Shown here: positions 1 to 14,073 of the stretch, piece after piece
How positions within the stretch are numbered: position 1 is the first letter of the stretch
How the letters are laid out: every line of letters starts with the position of its first letter
DNA from: Sulfurimonas sp. HSL1-2
GTDB lineage: Bacteria > Campylobacterota > Campylobacteria > Campylobacterales > Sulfurimonadaceae
Length of the DNA stretch: 64,000 nucleotides
Direction of reading: 5' to 3'
Assembly: GCF_039645565.1 (NCBI RefSeq)
Contig: NZ_CP147914.1
Coordinates: 1,237,573 to 1,301,572, forward strand
Position numbers and translations under genes: made by a program
The notes under the pieces: model-generated
Database searches by the model: none
Told to the model about the DNA's origin: nothing
The model's input: only the letters and a program-made list of their open reading frames with translations

Positions 1-627
1 GGCGGGGAAAGGGAACTCTACTATGAACTTCACGAGCACGGCAACGCGGCCCTGCTGGCATTCTGGTTTATTCACCTTGTGCTGCCGCTCTACTTTACAC
101 TCGAAGAGATGTATGATTTTTTTCATGCAGGTGCCGTAGAGATCGACAATCGCCCCGTTCTATTCATCGCACCTTCCATGGGCGGGAAATCCACGTTGAC
201 AGATTATTTCCTGCAACAGGGGCATCCGCTCATTTCAGATGACAAGGTACCGACATTCGTCGACAGCGAAGCCTTCATAGCCGTCGGTTCGCATCCCTAT
301 CATCGCCCCTACAGGAAATTCGAAGAGCTCGGCTACCGCGTGGATGATTTCATGACGGAGTTCAAGCCTATATCTGCCTTTTATCTCCTTGAAAAGTCCG
401 ATGCCGGAGCCGCCATCGTGATTGAAGAGATGACGGGCTTCCATAAATTCGAGGCACTAATGCCCAATTATCTCTTTCTTTTCTCTTTTTTGAAAACAAA
501 ACGTCTGAAGTATCTCTCCTCACTACTCAACAAGGTAAGGGTTTACACGATCCAGGTTCCCCATAACCTGAATCGGCTCAGTGAAGTGCACAGGGCCATC
601 TGTACACATCACAGGAGAGTGCAATGA
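1..627 (+). CDS. HPr-kinase-like protein of the lasso-peptide locus (5' partial)
   Basis: The frame is open from the first base, so the start lies outside the window; 208 residues are visible. Counting from the window edge, residues about 57-65 form a P-loop (APSMGGKST), preceded by FHAGAV and followed by LISDDKV. This order of His-Ala, P-loop and paired Asp is that of the HprK/P C-terminal fold. Genuine HprK phosphorylates PTS HPr; short HprK-like proteins encoded beside lasso cyclases are known to phosphorylate the C-terminal residue of the precursor (paeninodin system). The stop overlaps the cyclase start (ATGA at 624-627), so the two are probably co-translated, and the nearby precursor ends in Ser. 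A GTG at 79 is in frame, but the frame stays protein-like upstream of it. Inference: tailoring kinase for the peptide encoded at 2564. Confidence 0.75.
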   Translation, partial: GGERELYYELHEHGNAALLAFWFIHLVLPLYFTLEEMYDFFHAGAVEIDNRPVLFIAPSMGGKSTLTDYFLQQGHPLISDDKVPTFVDSEAFIAVGSHPYHRPYRKFEELGYRVDDFMTEFKPISAFYLLEKSDAGAAIVIEEMTGFHKFEALMPNYLFLFSFLKTKRLKYLSSLLNKVRVYTIQVPHNLNRLSEVHRAICTHHRRVQ

Positions 628-2519
628 GCGGTATCTTCGGTGTTTTTAACCGGAACGGTACACCGGTAGAGGAAGCCACAGCGACTGCAATGCTTGATGC
701 TTTTTCATATTGGTCGCCGGATGAACAGGGTGTCAAACGGGACATTTCAGTTTTGCTGGGGCATACGATGCTTCACAACACCCCCGAATCACACCATGAG
801 CAGCTGCCGCTTGATCGGGGGCAGTACTTGTTGACAATAGACGCACGGATTGACAATCGGGAAGAATTGTTTGATCAGCTCATTCTGCCTGACAGCCCAG
901 CGAGCGAGATCGGCGACAGCGAGTTTATTCTGGCTGCTTACCGAAAATGGGGGAGCAGTTGCCCCCAGTATCTTCTGGGCGACTTTGCCTTTGCGATCTT
1001 GGACAAAGAAAAAAAGCAGCTCTTCTGCGCACGGGATCATATGGGGGTCAAGCCGTTTTATTATCACCTGGACGACGATGTTTTTATCTTCGGAAATGAT
1101 ATGAAAGGGCTCCTGGCATCTAAAGAGATTCCTACAGATTTCAGTGACGAGGCCGCGGCGATCTATCTGGAGAAAGGGGAGCTTTGGCACCCGACACTGA
1201 CCTTTTTTGAAGGGATCAAAAAACTCCCTCCTGCAGCGACGCTTACCGTAACGGATTCTTCGGCATCTTTCGATACATACTGGAATATTGAGGCGACACC
1301 TCTGCAGAAAATGGAGACCTTTGAAGCGTACCGTGGAAAACTGCGTGCATTGTTAGAGGACGCCGTTCGTGTGCGCCTGCGCACGGCATACCCGGTCGCA
1401 TCACATTTGAGCGGCGGACTGGACTCTTCAATGATCAGCGTCCTTGCTGCACGCCTGCTTGCACAGAAGAACCAAAAACTGAAGGCCTATAGTTGGATTG
1501 CAGCGCCGGGCACCGAAGATGATCATACCCATCATGAATGGGCGAATAGTCATCAGATTGCCCGTGAGGAAAACATAGAGCTGGAGCATATCGATCTTGA
1601 TGCTAAAACTTTGTCGGAAATATTGCTGGGTCTTGATATCGCATGGAACGATACTACTGACCTGTGGTATGAATTTGTGCTGCGGAAATCGGCGCAACAA
1701 CAGCACATCCGAACCGTTTTATCGGGGTGGGGCGGAGATGAGTTTATCACCTACCATGGCAGGGCGATCTATGCTGATCTTTTCCGGCATGGCAAAATTG
1801 TTCAAGCGCTAACGGGACTCTGGCATAAATGTACAAAGGCACAAAAACGCACACGCTGCTTCATTCTCCAATGCTACCGTGAACTTATTCTCCCTCTTGT
1901 GCCGCGCCGGATACTATGCTATATGCCGAAAGTGGATTGTCCCTTCCTTGGTTATGTCCAATTTGCCCAGAAACATTTTGCCCGTTATGTACGCAGTCGT
2001 ACCAAGCGTTCTACCTTTATGTACCAAAAGAGCATTCGCGGCGACCAGCTTTATCTCTATCGACAGGGCCATATCCTTGCCCGCTTTGAGTCATGGGCAT
2101 CCTCCGCGTTTGCCTGCCGGCTTGAGTACAGTTACCCGCTGCTTGACAAACGACTTGTAGAGCTTGCACTGTCGCAGCCCGCTGAACTCTATTACCGGGA
2201 GGGCGTGTCACGGTTTCTTTTTCGGCATGCCGTTGCCGATATCCTGCCGGAGGAGATCCGTACCGGGAACTTTAAGTATGAACCCAATCGGATCGAACAT
2301 ATTCTCAAAACCGAACAAGAGGCTTTTGCCTATCTTCTTGAAGCGTATTCGTGGGATGATGCATGCTTGCGGGAGCACCGATATATTGACAGGGATAAGC
2401 TCCGGCTGGCCATGGAAAAATTCGTTAATCGTGAGATTGCGTTCAAGAAAAATAATATACAAACAATAAATGAAATAGAAAAGGCGTTTCTGCTCGCTAC
2501 CCTAGGAAGTCGTCGATAA
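624..2519 (+). CDS. asparagine synthetase-like lasso-peptide macrolactam cyclase
   Basis: A 631-residue protein with an N-terminal class II glutaminase-like domain (about 1-210) and a C-terminal ATP-pyrophosphatase domain. The PPi-loop SGGLDSS is at 263-269 and a second conserved loop, LSGWGGDEF, at 366-374. True asparagine synthetases start MCGI and use Cys2 as nucleophile; here the start is MSGIFG, so Cys2 is Ser and glutamine hydrolysis should be lost. That substitution is typical of lasso cyclases (the C protein), which adenylate an Asp/Glu side chain and join it to the core N-terminus. It sits directly between the HprK-like kinase and the precursor gene at 2564. Alternative: an AsnB paralogue in surface-polymer synthesis, made less likely by the kinase, precursor and PqqD-like neighbours. 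Confidence 0.82.
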   Translation: MSGIFGVFNRNGTPVEEATATAMLDAFSYWSPDEQGVKRDISVLLGHTMLHNTPESHHEQLPLDRGQYLLTIDARIDNREELFDQLILPDSPASEIGDSEFILAAYRKWGSSCPQYLLGDFAFAILDKEKKQLFCARDHMGVKPFYYHLDDDVFIFGNDMKGLLASKEIPTDFSDEAAAIYLEKGELWHPTLTFFEGIKKLPPAATLTVTDSSASFDTYWNIEATPLQKMETFEAYRGKLRALLEDAVRVRLRTAYPVASHLSGGLDSSMISVLAARLLAQKNQKLKAYSWIAAPGTEDDHTHHEWANSHQIAREENIELEHIDLDAKTLSEILLGLDIAWNDTTDLWYEFVLRKSAQQQHIRTVLSGWGGDEFITYHGRAIYADLFRHGKIVQALTGLWHKCTKAQKRTRCFILQCYRELILPLVPRRILCYMPKVDCPFLGYVQFAQKHFARYVRSRTKRSTFMYQKSIRGDQLYLYRQGHILARFESWASSAFACRLEYSYPLLDKRLVELALSQPAELYYREGVSRFLFRHAVADILPEEIRTGNFKYEPNRIEHILKTEQEAFAYLLEAYSWDDACLREHRYIDRDKLRLAMEKFVNREIAFKKNNIQTINEIEKAFLLATLGSRR

Positions 2520-2563: not shown

Positions 2564-2716
2564 ATGTCTAGTAAAGAAACATTGACCGAACGCAAAAAAG
2601 TATGGAAGCAGCCCGCCTTGAAAGTCCTGGATATTCAGTCGACAAAAAGCGGGCTGGTGGATTCAAATCAGGAAAACAAGAACCACTACGTCTTTGGCGG
2701 TGCAGCCGCCAGCTAA
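2564..2716 (+). CDS. putative lasso-peptide precursor (50 aa)
   Basis: Small reading frame 44 bases after the cyclase stop. Leader residues W14, P17 and L19 make a WxxPxL motif, equivalent to the YxxPxL signature read by RRE/PqqD-like proteins. Ten residues after P17 comes Thr27, the usual -2 Thr before the cleavage site (T27-K28). The predicted core is residues 29-50: S1 G2 start, Glu at core position 9 (E37), then an N-K-N-H-Y-V-F-G-G tail ending A-A-A-S. Position 9 is a permitted acceptor for a nine-residue macrolactam ring; if the core instead began at G30, E37 would be position 8. The C-terminal Ser matches the kinase upstream. A second in-frame ATG at 2549 would add five residues; the ribosome site is weak for both. 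No homologue search could be run. Confidence 0.72.
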   Translation: MSSKETLTERKKVWKQPALKVLDIQSTKSGLVDSNQENKNHYVFGGAAAS

Positions 2717-2739: not shown

Positions 2740-3891
2740 TCACTGGATGGCGAGGTCCGGCCGCACAAGTCCGGCACCCTGTTCATCCGCAGGCAGTCCC
2801 AGGTCTTCGGCGCTGCTTTTTAATTTTGTTTTGACTTCATCCGGCGTAAGGGCAGGGAACACAGAAAGTACAAGCGCTGCCGATGCCGTCACGTGAGGCG
2901 TTGCCATACTGGTACCACTCATAGTCGTATAGCCCGCATTAAGGTAGGTGGAGTAGATACTTACTCCTGGAGCCGCGAGGTCAACTTCCGGGCCGTAGCT
3001 GGAGCTTGCCGCCAGGATTCCGTTGATATTGACGGAAGAGACCGCGATCGTTTCGGGATACCTGGCCGGGTAAAGCATGGTACCGCCCGAACTCCCGTTG
3101 TTCCCGGCGGCGGCCACTTGTACGATGCCCGCGGCATGCATAGCCGTAACGGCGTCTGCCAGGGATTGGACGGTACTCGTCGCTCCGAAGCTCATGTTGA
3201 CGACTTGCATGTGGTTGTCAATACACCACTGCATCCCGTCAAGAATATCCGACAGGTTCCCCGTATTGTCGCTGCCAAGCACTTTGACGACATAGAGATT
3301 GATCTGCGGAGCGGCACCGATCACCCCGATGGTGTTATTGGCGGCTGCAATGATCCCGCTGACATGGGTACCGTGCCCGTTATCGTCCACGGCACTTTTA
3401 TGCGGGTTGATCGCACTGAAATTCCCTTTGATGTTGTCGGTCAGGTCGGGATGGTCAAGATCCGCCCCCGTATCGAGTACGGCAACGTTGATCATCGTCC
3501 CGTTGGTCTCTGCCCAGGCAAGATCTGCTTCGATCCGGTCAATACCCCAGGTCAGCTCCTGTGGCGGCTGGGGGAGAGGATCGACGGGTTTTGCTGTTCC
3601 ATGCAGCACGATATCATCGTCAATGCGGAGAATATTCTGGTTGTCAAGACTTTGCAACGCCTCGAACGCTGCATCAGGAAGCGATACCGCAAAACCGTTG
3701 ATGATCCGCAGCGGTTTAACAGGAATTACCCCCATGTTTTTAAGCAGTGCAGCCTGTTGGACAGGGTTTGAAAATCCCGGTGCAAAGACAACGATTTTCT
3801 GTTTTACATTGGCTGCGAAAACATTACCGGCAAAGATAGTGGCGATAAACAGAACAAAAAGATACTGTATCGGACGAAAACGCTTCAACAT
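2740..3891 (-). CDS. secreted subtilisin-like serine protease (peptidase S8)
   Basis: A 383-residue preproprotease. From the chosen start: signal peptide (about 1-26, ending VFA-A), an I9-like propeptide (about 30-97), then the S8 domain with catalytic Asp140 (VAVLDTGAD), His173 (NGHGTHVSG), oxyanion Asn264 (AAAGNNG) and Ser328 (GTSMATPHV). An earlier in-frame start at 3918 exists, but a perfect AAAGGAGGT ribosome site at about 3901-3909 fixes the ATG at 3891. It converges on the lasso-type precursor with only 23 bases between the stops. It is probably exported and self-processing. Whether it serves the peptide (trimming, turnover, immunity) or is just a neighbour cannot be told from sequence; it is not the usual transglutaminase-like leader peptidase (B2). 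Confidence 0.9.
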   Translation of the reverse strand: MLKRFRPIQYLFVLFIATIFAGNVFAANVKQKIVVFAPGFSNPVQQAALLKNMGVIPVKPLRIINGFAVSLPDAAFEALQSLDNQNILRIDDDIVLHGTAKPVDPLPQPPQELTWGIDRIEADLAWAETNGTMINVAVLDTGADLDHPDLTDNIKGNFSAINPHKSAVDDNGHGTHVSGIIAAANNTIGVIGAAPQINLYVVKVLGSDNTGNLSDILDGMQWCIDNHMQVVNMSFGATSTVQSLADAVTAMHAAGIVQVAAAGNNGSSGGTMLYPARYPETIAVSSVNINGILAASSSYGPEVDLAAPGVSIYSTYLNAGYTTMSGTSMATPHVTASAALVLSVFPALTPDEVKTKLKSSAEDLGLPADEQGAGLVRPDLAIQ

Positions 3892-4095
3892 AGACAACCT
3901 CCTTTGAATAAGCTTCAATCATAACAAATTCAATCTTTATTGCCACTGTTTTTGTACAATTAAAAATAACCTAATTAAATATTGTTATTTGTTAATTATG
4001 GCACTATTTTTTTGCAACATGTCAAAAAATAATCACATTTCATACAAATAAAAATATATATACGATGTATAGTATAATTCTCCAAAGGATAAGCG
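3892..4095. other. AT-rich divergent intergenic region
   Basis: About 200 bases between the divergent S8 protease and PqqD-like genes, markedly AT-rich against the window. On the minus side a TATGAT-like -10 (about 3918-3923) and the strong ribosome site serve the protease; on the plus side TATAAT at 4073-4078 serves the RRE gene. No coding frame longer than about 16 codons was found. Confidence 0.5.
4073..4078 (+). promoter_or_regulatory. -10 box of the PqqD-like gene
   Basis: Perfect TATAAT 17 bases before the GTG start, preceded by an AT-rich tract with no clear -35, as is usual for Campylobacterota sigma-70 promoters. The ribosome site AAAGGAT follows at 4084-4090. Confidence 0.55.
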
Positions 4096-4368
4096 GTGGA
4101 TTACTCAAAGAGAATTGCGGTAGCGGATACGGTCTTTTCACAAATGGTAGACGACGAGATTGTTCTGCTCGATATGGCAAGTGAGAACTATTTCGGTCTC
4201 GACAGCGTGGCAACCGATATCTGGCAGCTGCTGCAGGAAGGAAAGACCCTCCAGGAAACCGTAGATGCACTTCGCAATATGTACGAAGTCGATCTTGATA
4301 TATTGAAAAAAGACCTTGAAACATTTATAGACACTTTAATTAACAAAAAACTCGCCAAACTCGCATGA
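4096..4368 (+). CDS. PqqD-like RiPP recognition element protein (lasso B1 type)
   Basis: A 90-residue protein with the PqqD/RRE pattern: a beta-rich N-terminal third (VLLDMASENYFGLDSVATDIW, residues about 23-43, key residues N31 Y32 F33 L35 and W43) followed by three helices with LQEGKTLQETVDAL and a C-terminal L-x-L tail. RRE proteins bind the leader of a RiPP precursor (YxxPxL-type in lasso peptides) and present it to protease and cyclase. GTG start with ribosome site AAAGGAT. It stands alone under its own promoter, separated from the kinase-cyclase-precursor run by the inverted S8 gene. No transglutaminase-like B2 protease follows; that partner, if present, must lie upstream of the window. 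Confidence 0.82.
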   Translation: MDYSKRIAVADTVFSQMVDDEIVLLDMASENYFGLDSVATDIWQLLQEGKTLQETVDALRNMYEVDLDILKKDLETFIDTLINKKLAKLA

Positions 4369-4461: not shown

Positions 4462-5226
4462 GTGCCTTTCCCCTTGAAATCAATACTGCTGTGTTCTCTG
4501 ACAGTGATCACTCTTCAGGCTTTCGAAACAGACACTGAGATCGGGGCAGGGGTGTGGAATGCCAAAGCGTCGGGTGATTTGACCTATGATGAGAGTGGGG
4601 GGAGCGTCACCGCCGTCGGAGACCTGGGCTACAAGAACGAAAACAACTTCTATTTCTATGCAGTTTTCAAGCCGGTGAACATATCCCCCTTCGTGCCGAA
4701 CCTCAAGCTCGAGTACACGTCGATCGCCTATGAGGGGCGTACCGAAGGCTCAGTCACGTGGGGACCGTTTCTCTACCAGGCCGATGCACCGAATAAAGTG
4801 ACCGCGCTGGAGTACGATGCGACCTTCTACTATACGTTTGCCGACCTGATTTCATGGATGTCGATCGACGCCGGCATCAATGTGAAATACGTCAAAACGC
4901 GCTATACCATCGATGACAGCTCTTTTCATTATGATGAAAGCGACATTACAACGCTTCCGCAGCTCTACCTGCATGCCCGCGTTCCTGTCATGCAGCTGCC
5001 CGCCTCGGTCGATCTCTCCTACTACTATTATGATGAAGGCAGTTTCACCCTCTATGACTTCCGGTTGTCGGGACGGTATGATTTCGATGCGGTGACGACC
5101 CATTTCAGACCTTCGGTGGAACTCGGGTACCGTATTCACCGGCTCTGGCTCCAGAAACCGAGCTACAACACGAAGATCGATCTCCATTTGAGCGGCATTT
5201 ACCTGGACGCCTCGCTGCATTTTTAG
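4462..5226 (+). CDS. outer-membrane beta-barrel protein, TIGR04219-like
   Basis: A 254-residue exported protein: signal peptide of about 19 residues ending LQAF-E, then alternating aromatic/polar strands and a terminal Phe (ASLHF) as expected for insertion by the BAM complex. The opening TEIGAGVWNAKASGDLTYDE and the overall length resemble the TIGR04219 OM family common in Campylobacterota; function unknown. GTG start with a GAAGGAG ribosome site at 4451-4456. It is not obviously tied to the RRE gene in front (93-base gap with its own -10). Confidence 0.75.
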   Translation: MPFPLKSILLCSLTVITLQAFETDTEIGAGVWNAKASGDLTYDESGGSVTAVGDLGYKNENNFYFYAVFKPVNISPFVPNLKLEYTSIAYEGRTEGSVTWGPFLYQADAPNKVTALEYDATFYYTFADLISWMSIDAGINVKYVKTRYTIDDSSFHYDESDITTLPQLYLHARVPVMQLPASVDLSYYYYDEGSFTLYDFRLSGRYDFDAVTTHFRPSVELGYRIHRLWLQKPSYNTKIDLHLSGIYLDASLHF

Positions 5227-12113: not shown

Positions 12114-12589
12114 AGTCCGCTTTAGCCCTTATCGCCATCATTGCAGCGGCAGGGAGCCTCTGTGCAGCCGAGCAGCTCAAGATCGCTGCCGACGCTTTTA
12201 CGGCCAACGAGAAACAAGGGCGTTCGGTGTTCGAGGGGCATGTGCGCATCAAGATGGGGAGCGATGAACTCAATGCGTCGCGTGTCGAGGTTTATACCGC
12301 CGAAGATCGTACACCGACGAAGTATATCGCCAGCGGCGACGCCTCCTTTTTCCTCAAGGCCGACAACGGCGCGACGTACAGCGGTCGGGCGCAGAAGGTT
12401 ATCTACCTCCCGCTGAAAGAGCAGTACAGTTTCTACGGCGACGTGCACCTGATGCAGCACGATGAGCACAAGCAGATCGACGGCGAAGAGGTCGTCGTCA
12501 ATATCCAGGAGGGCACAGCCGCGGCCAGAGGGGCGGAGCGCCAGCCCGTCATCATGATCTTCAACCTGCCCGAGGAGAAAAAGAAGTGA
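12110..12589 (+). CDS. lptA: LPS transport periplasmic protein LptA
   Basis: A 159-residue periplasmic protein: signal peptide MKSALALIAIIAAAGSLCA-A, then an OstA-N/LptA fold (ADAFTANEKQGRSVFEGHV, DELNASRVEVYT, KYIASGDASFFL, GRAQKVIYLPLKEQYSFYGD). It forms the oligomeric bridge between LptC and LptD. GTG start placed directly behind AAGGAG at 12099-12104. Overlaps engB by four bases. Confidence 0.88.
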   Translation: MKSALALIAIIAAAGSLCAAEQLKIAADAFTANEKQGRSVFEGHVRIKMGSDELNASRVEVYTAEDRTPTKYIASGDASFFLKADNGATYSGRAQKVIYLPLKEQYSFYGDVHLMQHDEHKQIDGEEVVVNIQEGTAAARGAERQPVIMIFNLPEEKKK

Positions 12590-13654: not shown

Positions 13655-14073
13655 CCTGGATTTTTTTCGCACTCCTCTTCGTACCGTACGAAGCGCTGAG
13701 CATGCACTATCTCTATCTGCCGCCGCTCTTCGGCGTCCTTTTTTTTCTCTATATCCGCGCGCTTGACAGGCACTCGTCCTTTGCCTTTTTCGTCATTGTC
13801 TCCCTGCTTGTCATCGCCGAAACCGCGAAAGGGTACCTGCTGCTCAGCACGCTCTTTTTCTACACCGTCAGCTATTTTCTCATCCTGCCGCGCATCAAGA
13901 GCATCGTCTCCTGCCATCTCTGCCTTAATGCCATTATCGTGCTGCTGGCCTATGTCGGTTACTGGGCCTTCACAGCGCTCTTTGCGAACATGTTTGCCCT
14001 TCCGCTGCCGCAGCTTGATTTCAAGGTCATCTTCTATATGATGATCGAGTTCTTCCTGGTGGGGCTGCTGTGA
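13621..14073 (+). CDS. small inner-membrane protein, MreD-like position
   Basis: About 150 residues with four to five hydrophobic helices (TWIFFALLFVPYEAL, YLPPLFGVLFFLYI, FAFFVIVSLLVIA, LNAIIVLLAYVGYWAF, FYMMIEFFLVGLL). It precedes and overlaps mrdA (PBP2) by four bases, the position mreD holds in many rod-shape operons, but identity to MreD is inferred from size, topology and context only. Starts at 13603 and 13621 are both possible and overlap argA; neither has a clear ribosome site, suggesting translational coupling. Confidence 0.6.
   Translation: MQRNRADQNPLTWIFFALLFVPYEALSMHYLYLPPLFGVLFFLYIRALDRHSSFAFFVIVSLLVIAETAKGYLLLSTLFFYTVSYFLILPRIKSIVSCHLCLNAIIVLLAYVGYWAFTALFANMFALPLPQLDFKVIFYMMIEFFLVGLL

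Follow-up and report, generated by a model that had tools for sequence, protein, structure and literature searches.

A probable lasso peptide precursor gene in a kinase-bearing, subtilase-linked gene set of Sulfurimonas sp. HSL1-2

Does a 50-residue open frame of Sulfurimonas sp. HSL1-2 encode the precursor of a lasso peptide, and which genes would mature its product? The frame lies in a stretch of 64,000 nucleotides, referred to here as the window (G000:C1:1237573-1301572), within a genome of 2.52 Mb in one contig. It spans positions 2564-2716 of the + strand and its product is MSSKETLTERKKVWKQPALKVLDIQSTKSGLVDSNQENKNHYVFGGAAAS. An initial annotation, based on the letters of the window, had read it as a lasso precursor with W14, P17, L19, T27, K28, S29 and E37 as key residues; the translation agrees and places G30 next to S29. 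As the window start truncates the gene set, with D, B2 and the start of K lying upstream, we recovered these genes by adding the upstream DNA as L010 (window position = L010 position minus 9573). The features are:

L010:7056-8837: D, ABC exporter
L010:8834-9319: B2, leader peptidase (PF13471, NF033537)
L010:9304-10200, 3' part at 1..627 of the window, + strand: K, HPr-kinase-like, full gene 298 aa (weak HPr-kinase matches, invariant residues)
624..2519 (L010:10197-12092), + strand: C, asparagine-synthetase-like lasso cyclase, 631 aa (NF033535, PF00733, GATase_7)
2564..2716 (in L010, 12122 or 12137 to 12289), + strand: precursor gene A, 50 aa (precursor model, motif, homologues adjoining cyclases)
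2564..2647, + strand: leader, residues 1-28, with W14 (-15), P17 (-12), L19 (-10) and T27 (-2)
2648..2713, + strand: predicted core, 22 aa, placed by the leader register
codons 2648-2650 and 2672-2674, + strand: predicted ring, Ser1 to Glu9 (register; acid position in relatives)
codon 2711-2713, + strand: tail-end Ser22 of the predicted core
2740..3918, - strand: S8 subtilase gene, convergent with A and inside the unit described below (PF00082, 206.5 bits)
4096..4368, + strand: B1, PqqD-type RiPP recognition element, 90 aa (PF05402; TbiB1 match)

Exporter, leader peptidase, HPr-kinase-like kinase, cyclase and precursor are thus arranged in the order D-B2-K-C-A. D, B2, K and C overlap one another by 4 to 16 bases, and 29 or 44 bases separate C from A, depending on the start chosen. 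B2 matches PF13471 above its cut-off (75.8 bits) and NF033537 with 79.8 bits (cut-off 33), and it carries Cys and His in the context of a transglutaminase-like leader peptidase. The best model for C is the lasso cyclase NF033535 (416.9 bits, below the cut-off of 525), and the cut-offs of PF00733 and GATase_7 are passed. C starts with Met-Ser, the Ser replacing the catalytic Cys2, and accordingly is an asparagine-synthetase-like cyclase without the glutaminase Cys, in which the ATP motif SGGLDSS is intact. The Met-Ser start recurs in all nine lasso C genes listed; the asnB gene in L018 begins Met-Cys. B1, encoded 1.4 kb downstream of A, is the sole PqqD protein in the whole genome. It scores 60.3 bits with PF05402 (cut-off 23.4), and its best solved match is the lasso B1 protein TbiB1 (68.7 bits, E 4.5e-18, over 82 residues), a likeness that concerns the B1 proteins alone. 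It is a leader-binding protein of the PqqD/RRE kind that misses the cut-off of the lasso B1 model NF033536 (49.5 against 80 bits).

Cyclase, leader peptidase, B1, ABC exporter and kinase all adjoin A, which supports the lasso reading of the initial annotation. Judged from the sequence, A is in all probability a genuine gene that encodes the precursor of a knot-shaped lasso peptide, within a complete, kinase-bearing set. We are highly confident that its product is of the cysteine-free, paeninodin type and would be made by a stepwise B1/K/B2/C/D pathway. This reading starts from what is observed in the DNA: the reading frame, a complete gene set, a leader register and an acceptor position that relatives keep, catalytic-type residues that B2, C and K retain, and the gain or loss of D to B1 as a unit. 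The order of the steps, the point of cleavage, ring closure, phosphorylation and threading are predicted by comparison with characterised relatives, as follows. B1 would bind the leader via W(-15)-x-x-P(-12)-x-L(-10), and K would phosphorylate the precursor, most likely at its C-terminal Ser. B2, as a Cys/His peptidase, would then cleave past Lys28, one residue behind Thr(-2). C would activate Glu9 with ATP and form the amide to the Ser1 amino group, enclosing the tail in a ring of nine residues, and D would export the finished product.

A longer in-frame ATG at 2549 would extend A to 55 aa. We favour the start at 2564 since the same-genus homologue starts at the matching codon, with W as residue 14 in both; a purine-rich stretch precedes this start in A and homologue alike. 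A has the Y/WxxPxL leader, the Thr at -2 and the Asp/Glu within core positions 7-9 of a lasso precursor, and it scores 24.3 bits (E 1.9e-5) with the precursor model NF033524. As the curated cut-off of 27 is not reached, we class A as paeninodin-like and not as an NF033524 member, and a pipeline leaning on this model would skip it.

The likeness to paeninodin from Paenibacillus dendritiformis extends from the leader to the cluster. Both precursors share the aromatic residue at -15, P at -12, L at -10, T at -2, Gly2, the acid at 9 and the terminal Ser. The ten residues from P to T, given in the initial annotation, agree with the paeninodin precursor printed in PMC11594732, which also has the aromatic residue at -15. 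Both clusters combine an HPr-like kinase, split B1/B2 and C followed by A. However, the leader aromatic residue is Trp here and Tyr in paeninodin, the ring would join Ser1 and Glu9 rather than Ala1 and Asp9, and the order C A K B1 B2 D contrasts with D-B2-K-C-A followed by S8 and B1 in a Campylobacterales host, with a score under the family model cut-off. The same gene set occurs in Proteobacterial A B1 B2 C K D clusters (PMC5067487), in which A is first in the operon; here, A is last and B1 is split off behind the convergent S8. The BsfA/BsfK system of Bradymonas sediminis is likewise a Gram-negative, kinase-bearing split-B lasso cluster with the kinase pattern H-x20-K-S-x15-DD; it differs in its core Ser3 target, a leader with Ile at -2 and the aromatic residue at -17, and an extra nucleotidyltransferase (PMC10368454).

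With Thr27 at -2, the predicted core of A begins SGLVDSNQE and is without cysteine. The computed macrolactam mass of the Ser1-first, 22-residue core is 2246.0352 Da, matching the 2246.04 Da calculated by hand in the initial annotation, and the phosphorylated lasso product is predicted at 2326.002 Da. A cut one residue later, which that annotation had also allowed, would make Gly30 residue 1, place Glu at 8 and Thr at -3, and give a computed mass of 2159.0032 Da. Such a Gly-first lasso peptide fits too because all five aligned precursors have Gly at core position 2, and many cores in the table of PMC12427821 start with Gly; in paeninodin, however, the same leader register is followed by Ala1-Gly2, so that the conserved Gly is position 2 there as well. 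Moreover, PMC10368454 states that Thr as a rule occupies -2, and Ser1 has precedents in lariocidin and moomysin (PMC12427821). We regard the later cut as improbable and favour the nine-residue Ser1-Glu9 ring, which the initial annotation had put forward and which stands as the better of two options, as inferred from the register.

The initial annotation was right about the precursor, but had overlooked the linked subtilase, the kinase and the terminal Ser on which that kinase probably acts. K is only weakly HPr-kinase-like (best NCBIfam E 4.4e-4; best solved structure E 0.0011), and the window-truncated protein reaches 16.3 bits with Pfam Hpr_kinase_C, short of the cut-off of 33.3. It nevertheless has the His-Lys-Asp-Asp motif of an HPr-like kinase in the cluster: His132, Gly152, Lys153, Ser154, Asp170 and Asp171 are invariant in 18/18 aligned homologues, an alignment that omits more distant ones. 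The His/Lys/Ser/Asp-Asp spacing equals that of BsfK (H148, K169, S170, D186, D187; PMC10368454), two Walker-A glycines of which are replaced in K (Ala147, Met150). The predicted structure of K, with a mean pLDDT of 61, was of insufficient quality for use.

PadeK, the kinase of the paeninodin cluster, phosphorylates the Ser at the C-terminus of its precursor, a residue that is conserved in company with the kinase (PMC9266682). The C-terminal residue of A is such a Ser (Ser50, core Ser22). A terminal Ser occurs in 9/17 candidate cores, that of A included, against 3.1 expected (reached in 17 of 20,000 tail shuffles), and Ser or Thr is among the last two residues of 15/17 cores against 6.7 expected, a number reached by none of 20,000 shuffles; as the precursors are related, these statistics overstate independence. 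The rule of a terminal acceptor Ser is not strict, since the same-genus L016 precursor ends Ser-Gly and those of L064 and L074 have neither Ser nor Thr at the last two places. BsfK phosphorylates core Ser3 (PMC10368454). By analogy with PadeK, we infer that the C-terminal Ser of A is the most likely target of K.

Could K and B1 instead act on A to give a linear phosphorylated peptide without a ring, comparable to the linear polyphosphorylated peptides of Bacillota in PMC13381572? Several Campylobacterales loci do combine K with B1, with no cyclase found. At the locus studied here, however, C and B2 lie in the same operon with intact motifs and A directly follows C, which makes a linear product very unlikely. 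In L067, L068, L069, L071, L073 and L075, the kinase gene adjoins a PqqD gene and no lasso cyclase was detected on the stretch; these loci may be linear phosphopeptide systems like those of PMC13381572.

We further surveyed relatives of A and its neighbours. A composite motif ([WY]xxPx[LIVM], T ten residues past P, a short tail and an acid at core 7-9) has a single match across all six frames of the window; 60 Markov-shuffled windows together also gave one match, or about 0.02 per window. The same-genus homologue has the same leader at the same place, where the DNA is 56-66% alike. To find precursors, up to 600 bases from 19 lasso-type Campylobacterales cyclase genes were scanned for [WYF]xxPx[LIVMFC], with neither Thr nor acid required; a cyclase-like gene (L070:98-1936) and the asnB gene (L018:11220) were left out of the 19. 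A small motif frame adjoins 16/19 cyclase genes, including that of A. Fifteen were clear by the scan, and the L016 precursor was found by tblastn and counted by hand, as the script had not listed it because its open frame continues from the cyclase frame. No motif frame was present within 600 bases of the other three cyclases (second gene of L017, L066, L085), all at contig ends. Side matches without a leader were dropped, and the motif matches L019:5614, L070:5937 and L081:11588 were discarded as chance, being either away from a cyclase or not leader-like. That A itself is a chance frame, with the true precursor elsewhere, can be rejected as the least credible reading: short frames are common and A misses the NF033524 cut-off, but the rarity of the motif, the same-genus homologue and the frames beside 16/19 cyclases speak against it.

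The initial annotation had proposed aligning small frames beside similar cyclases, with loss of the motif in relatives as the outcome that would count against it. W/Y, P and the leader Thr are retained in all 16 precursors and the cores vary, with starts such as GGNNPKNNE (L016), TGSSQWKQE (L018), SGKPHTHE (L024) and SGAPWTSE (L059). With Thr set at -2, the acid is at core 8 or 9 in 13/16, a count taken from the scan without acid or Thr filter; an earlier count had been biased, as most rows came from a filter demanding an acid at 7-9. In the remaining three, the Y-type precursors L060:8276-8458, L065:12682-12813 and L080:10932-11093, the usable acid is at core 10 if Thr is at -2, and these would either be cut one residue later or form a ten-residue ring.

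Counting the genome of the window, a cyclase (E <= 1e-60) occurs in 5/397 sampled genomes of the phylum and the lasso B2 model in 8/397; the kinase alignment matches in 26/398 genomes of the order (E <= 1e-30) and in 3/8 of the genus (E <= 1e-20). Named kinase relatives include Sulfurovum and Epsilonproteobacteria records. A scan of genome contigs with the cyclase alone found no relative, and a scan with the kinase alignment gave seven loci, of which L022 and L024 were new and five apparently duplicate G371, G526, G251, G284 and G249. A plasmid search with the cyclase returned 17 records, all below 60% identity. Altogether, 16 further candidate precursors came from the same order; seven were scored with the curated precursor model and none reached its cut-off. 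Lasso peptides of this kind are already known and the example is new, the linked subtilase and the block-wise exchange described below being unusual. Among the literature matches listed there was no prior report of a Campylobacterales lasso peptide, to which our analysis adds a defined, mass-predictable candidate together with the 16 further precursors.

The candidates fall into two leader classes. Eight precursors, A included, have WxxP leaders and adjoin cyclases of the type of C, with ten residues from P to T in 7/8. Nine have YxxP leaders, with twelve residues from P to T in 8/9; seven of these nine adjoin a second cyclase type, and the cyclase of L060 scores poorly with both types. The 17th candidate, L061, is Y-type, with no cyclase on the available stretch. 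In Bacillota, Trp or Tyr at the leader site decides the pairing with the recognition protein, and a lasso precursor there has W at -15 (PMC13381572), the same register as in A. Both cyclase types occur together in two loci. G509 (L059) also has two kinases and a WxxP as well as a YxxP precursor, its second cyclase being truncated where the contig stops; in G371 (L017) no W-type precursor was seen before the contig ends. These dual-cyclase loci are a natural case for leader discrimination. The W-type precursor L064:6290-6415 has Ile at P+10, Thr at P+11 and no terminal Ser/Thr, and may be compared with the Ile(-2) leader of BsfA.

Between A and B1 lies the S8 subtilase gene, an arrangement present in both G000 and G191. 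Its product has a hydrophobic, signal-like N-terminal stretch, which makes it look secreted, and contains the Asp, His and Ser subtilase motifs. A close homologue (E <= 1e-60) occurs in 3/398 genomes of the order, adjoining a lasso B1 in 3/3. The G371 copy, next to B1 where a contig begins, has a broken frame, and we infer that this contig and the cyclase contig belong together. The gene is absent from both empty-site genomes, G288 and G305. S8 is hence a consistent neighbour and unit member whose role in the pathway is unproven. Rather speculatively, it could be a working part of the system that meets the peptide after export, beyond the cytoplasm, and shortens its Gly/Ala-rich tail or removes the product, a task of isopeptidases in other Gram-negative clusters. 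As D-B2-K-C-A would be swapped as a block while S8 and B1 stay, one leader-binding protein would serve successive products. Isopeptidases belong to other Gram-negative lasso clusters (PMC5067487), and no link between a subtilase and a lasso cluster appeared in the titles and abstracts among the literature matches listed.

The history of the locus was traced in related genomes. The unit lies between aspS and the OMP/nadK genes. The same-genus genomes G288 and G305 align with L010 as far as 7004 or 7022, and the match resumes at 13903 or 14022; these empty sites show that D-B2-K-C-A-S8-B1 is one gained-or-lost unit. In a third same-genus genome, G536 (L083), the same nadK has a distinct lasso cluster (B1, K, C, A) as its neighbour, which suggests that insertion or exchange recurs at this slot. 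Synonymous divergence between G000 and G191 amounts to 0.16-0.29 for the flanking genes, 0.60-0.72 for S8 and B1, and 1.1-1.9 for D, B2, K, C and A, the larger values being rough owing to saturation. DNA identity between the two genomes changes in steps at the start of D and just past A. Read most simply, this reflects exchange of the whole D-to-A block in one piece between two close species. Together, the unit and the block exchange let one ask which genes of a lasso cluster move jointly, and whether the subtilase is among them. Downstream, at 4462-5226 of the window, lies a gene for a TIGR04219 outer-membrane beta-barrel protein (112.9 bits, cut-off 105), which is outside the gained-or-lost unit, as it also occurs in the empty-site genomes.
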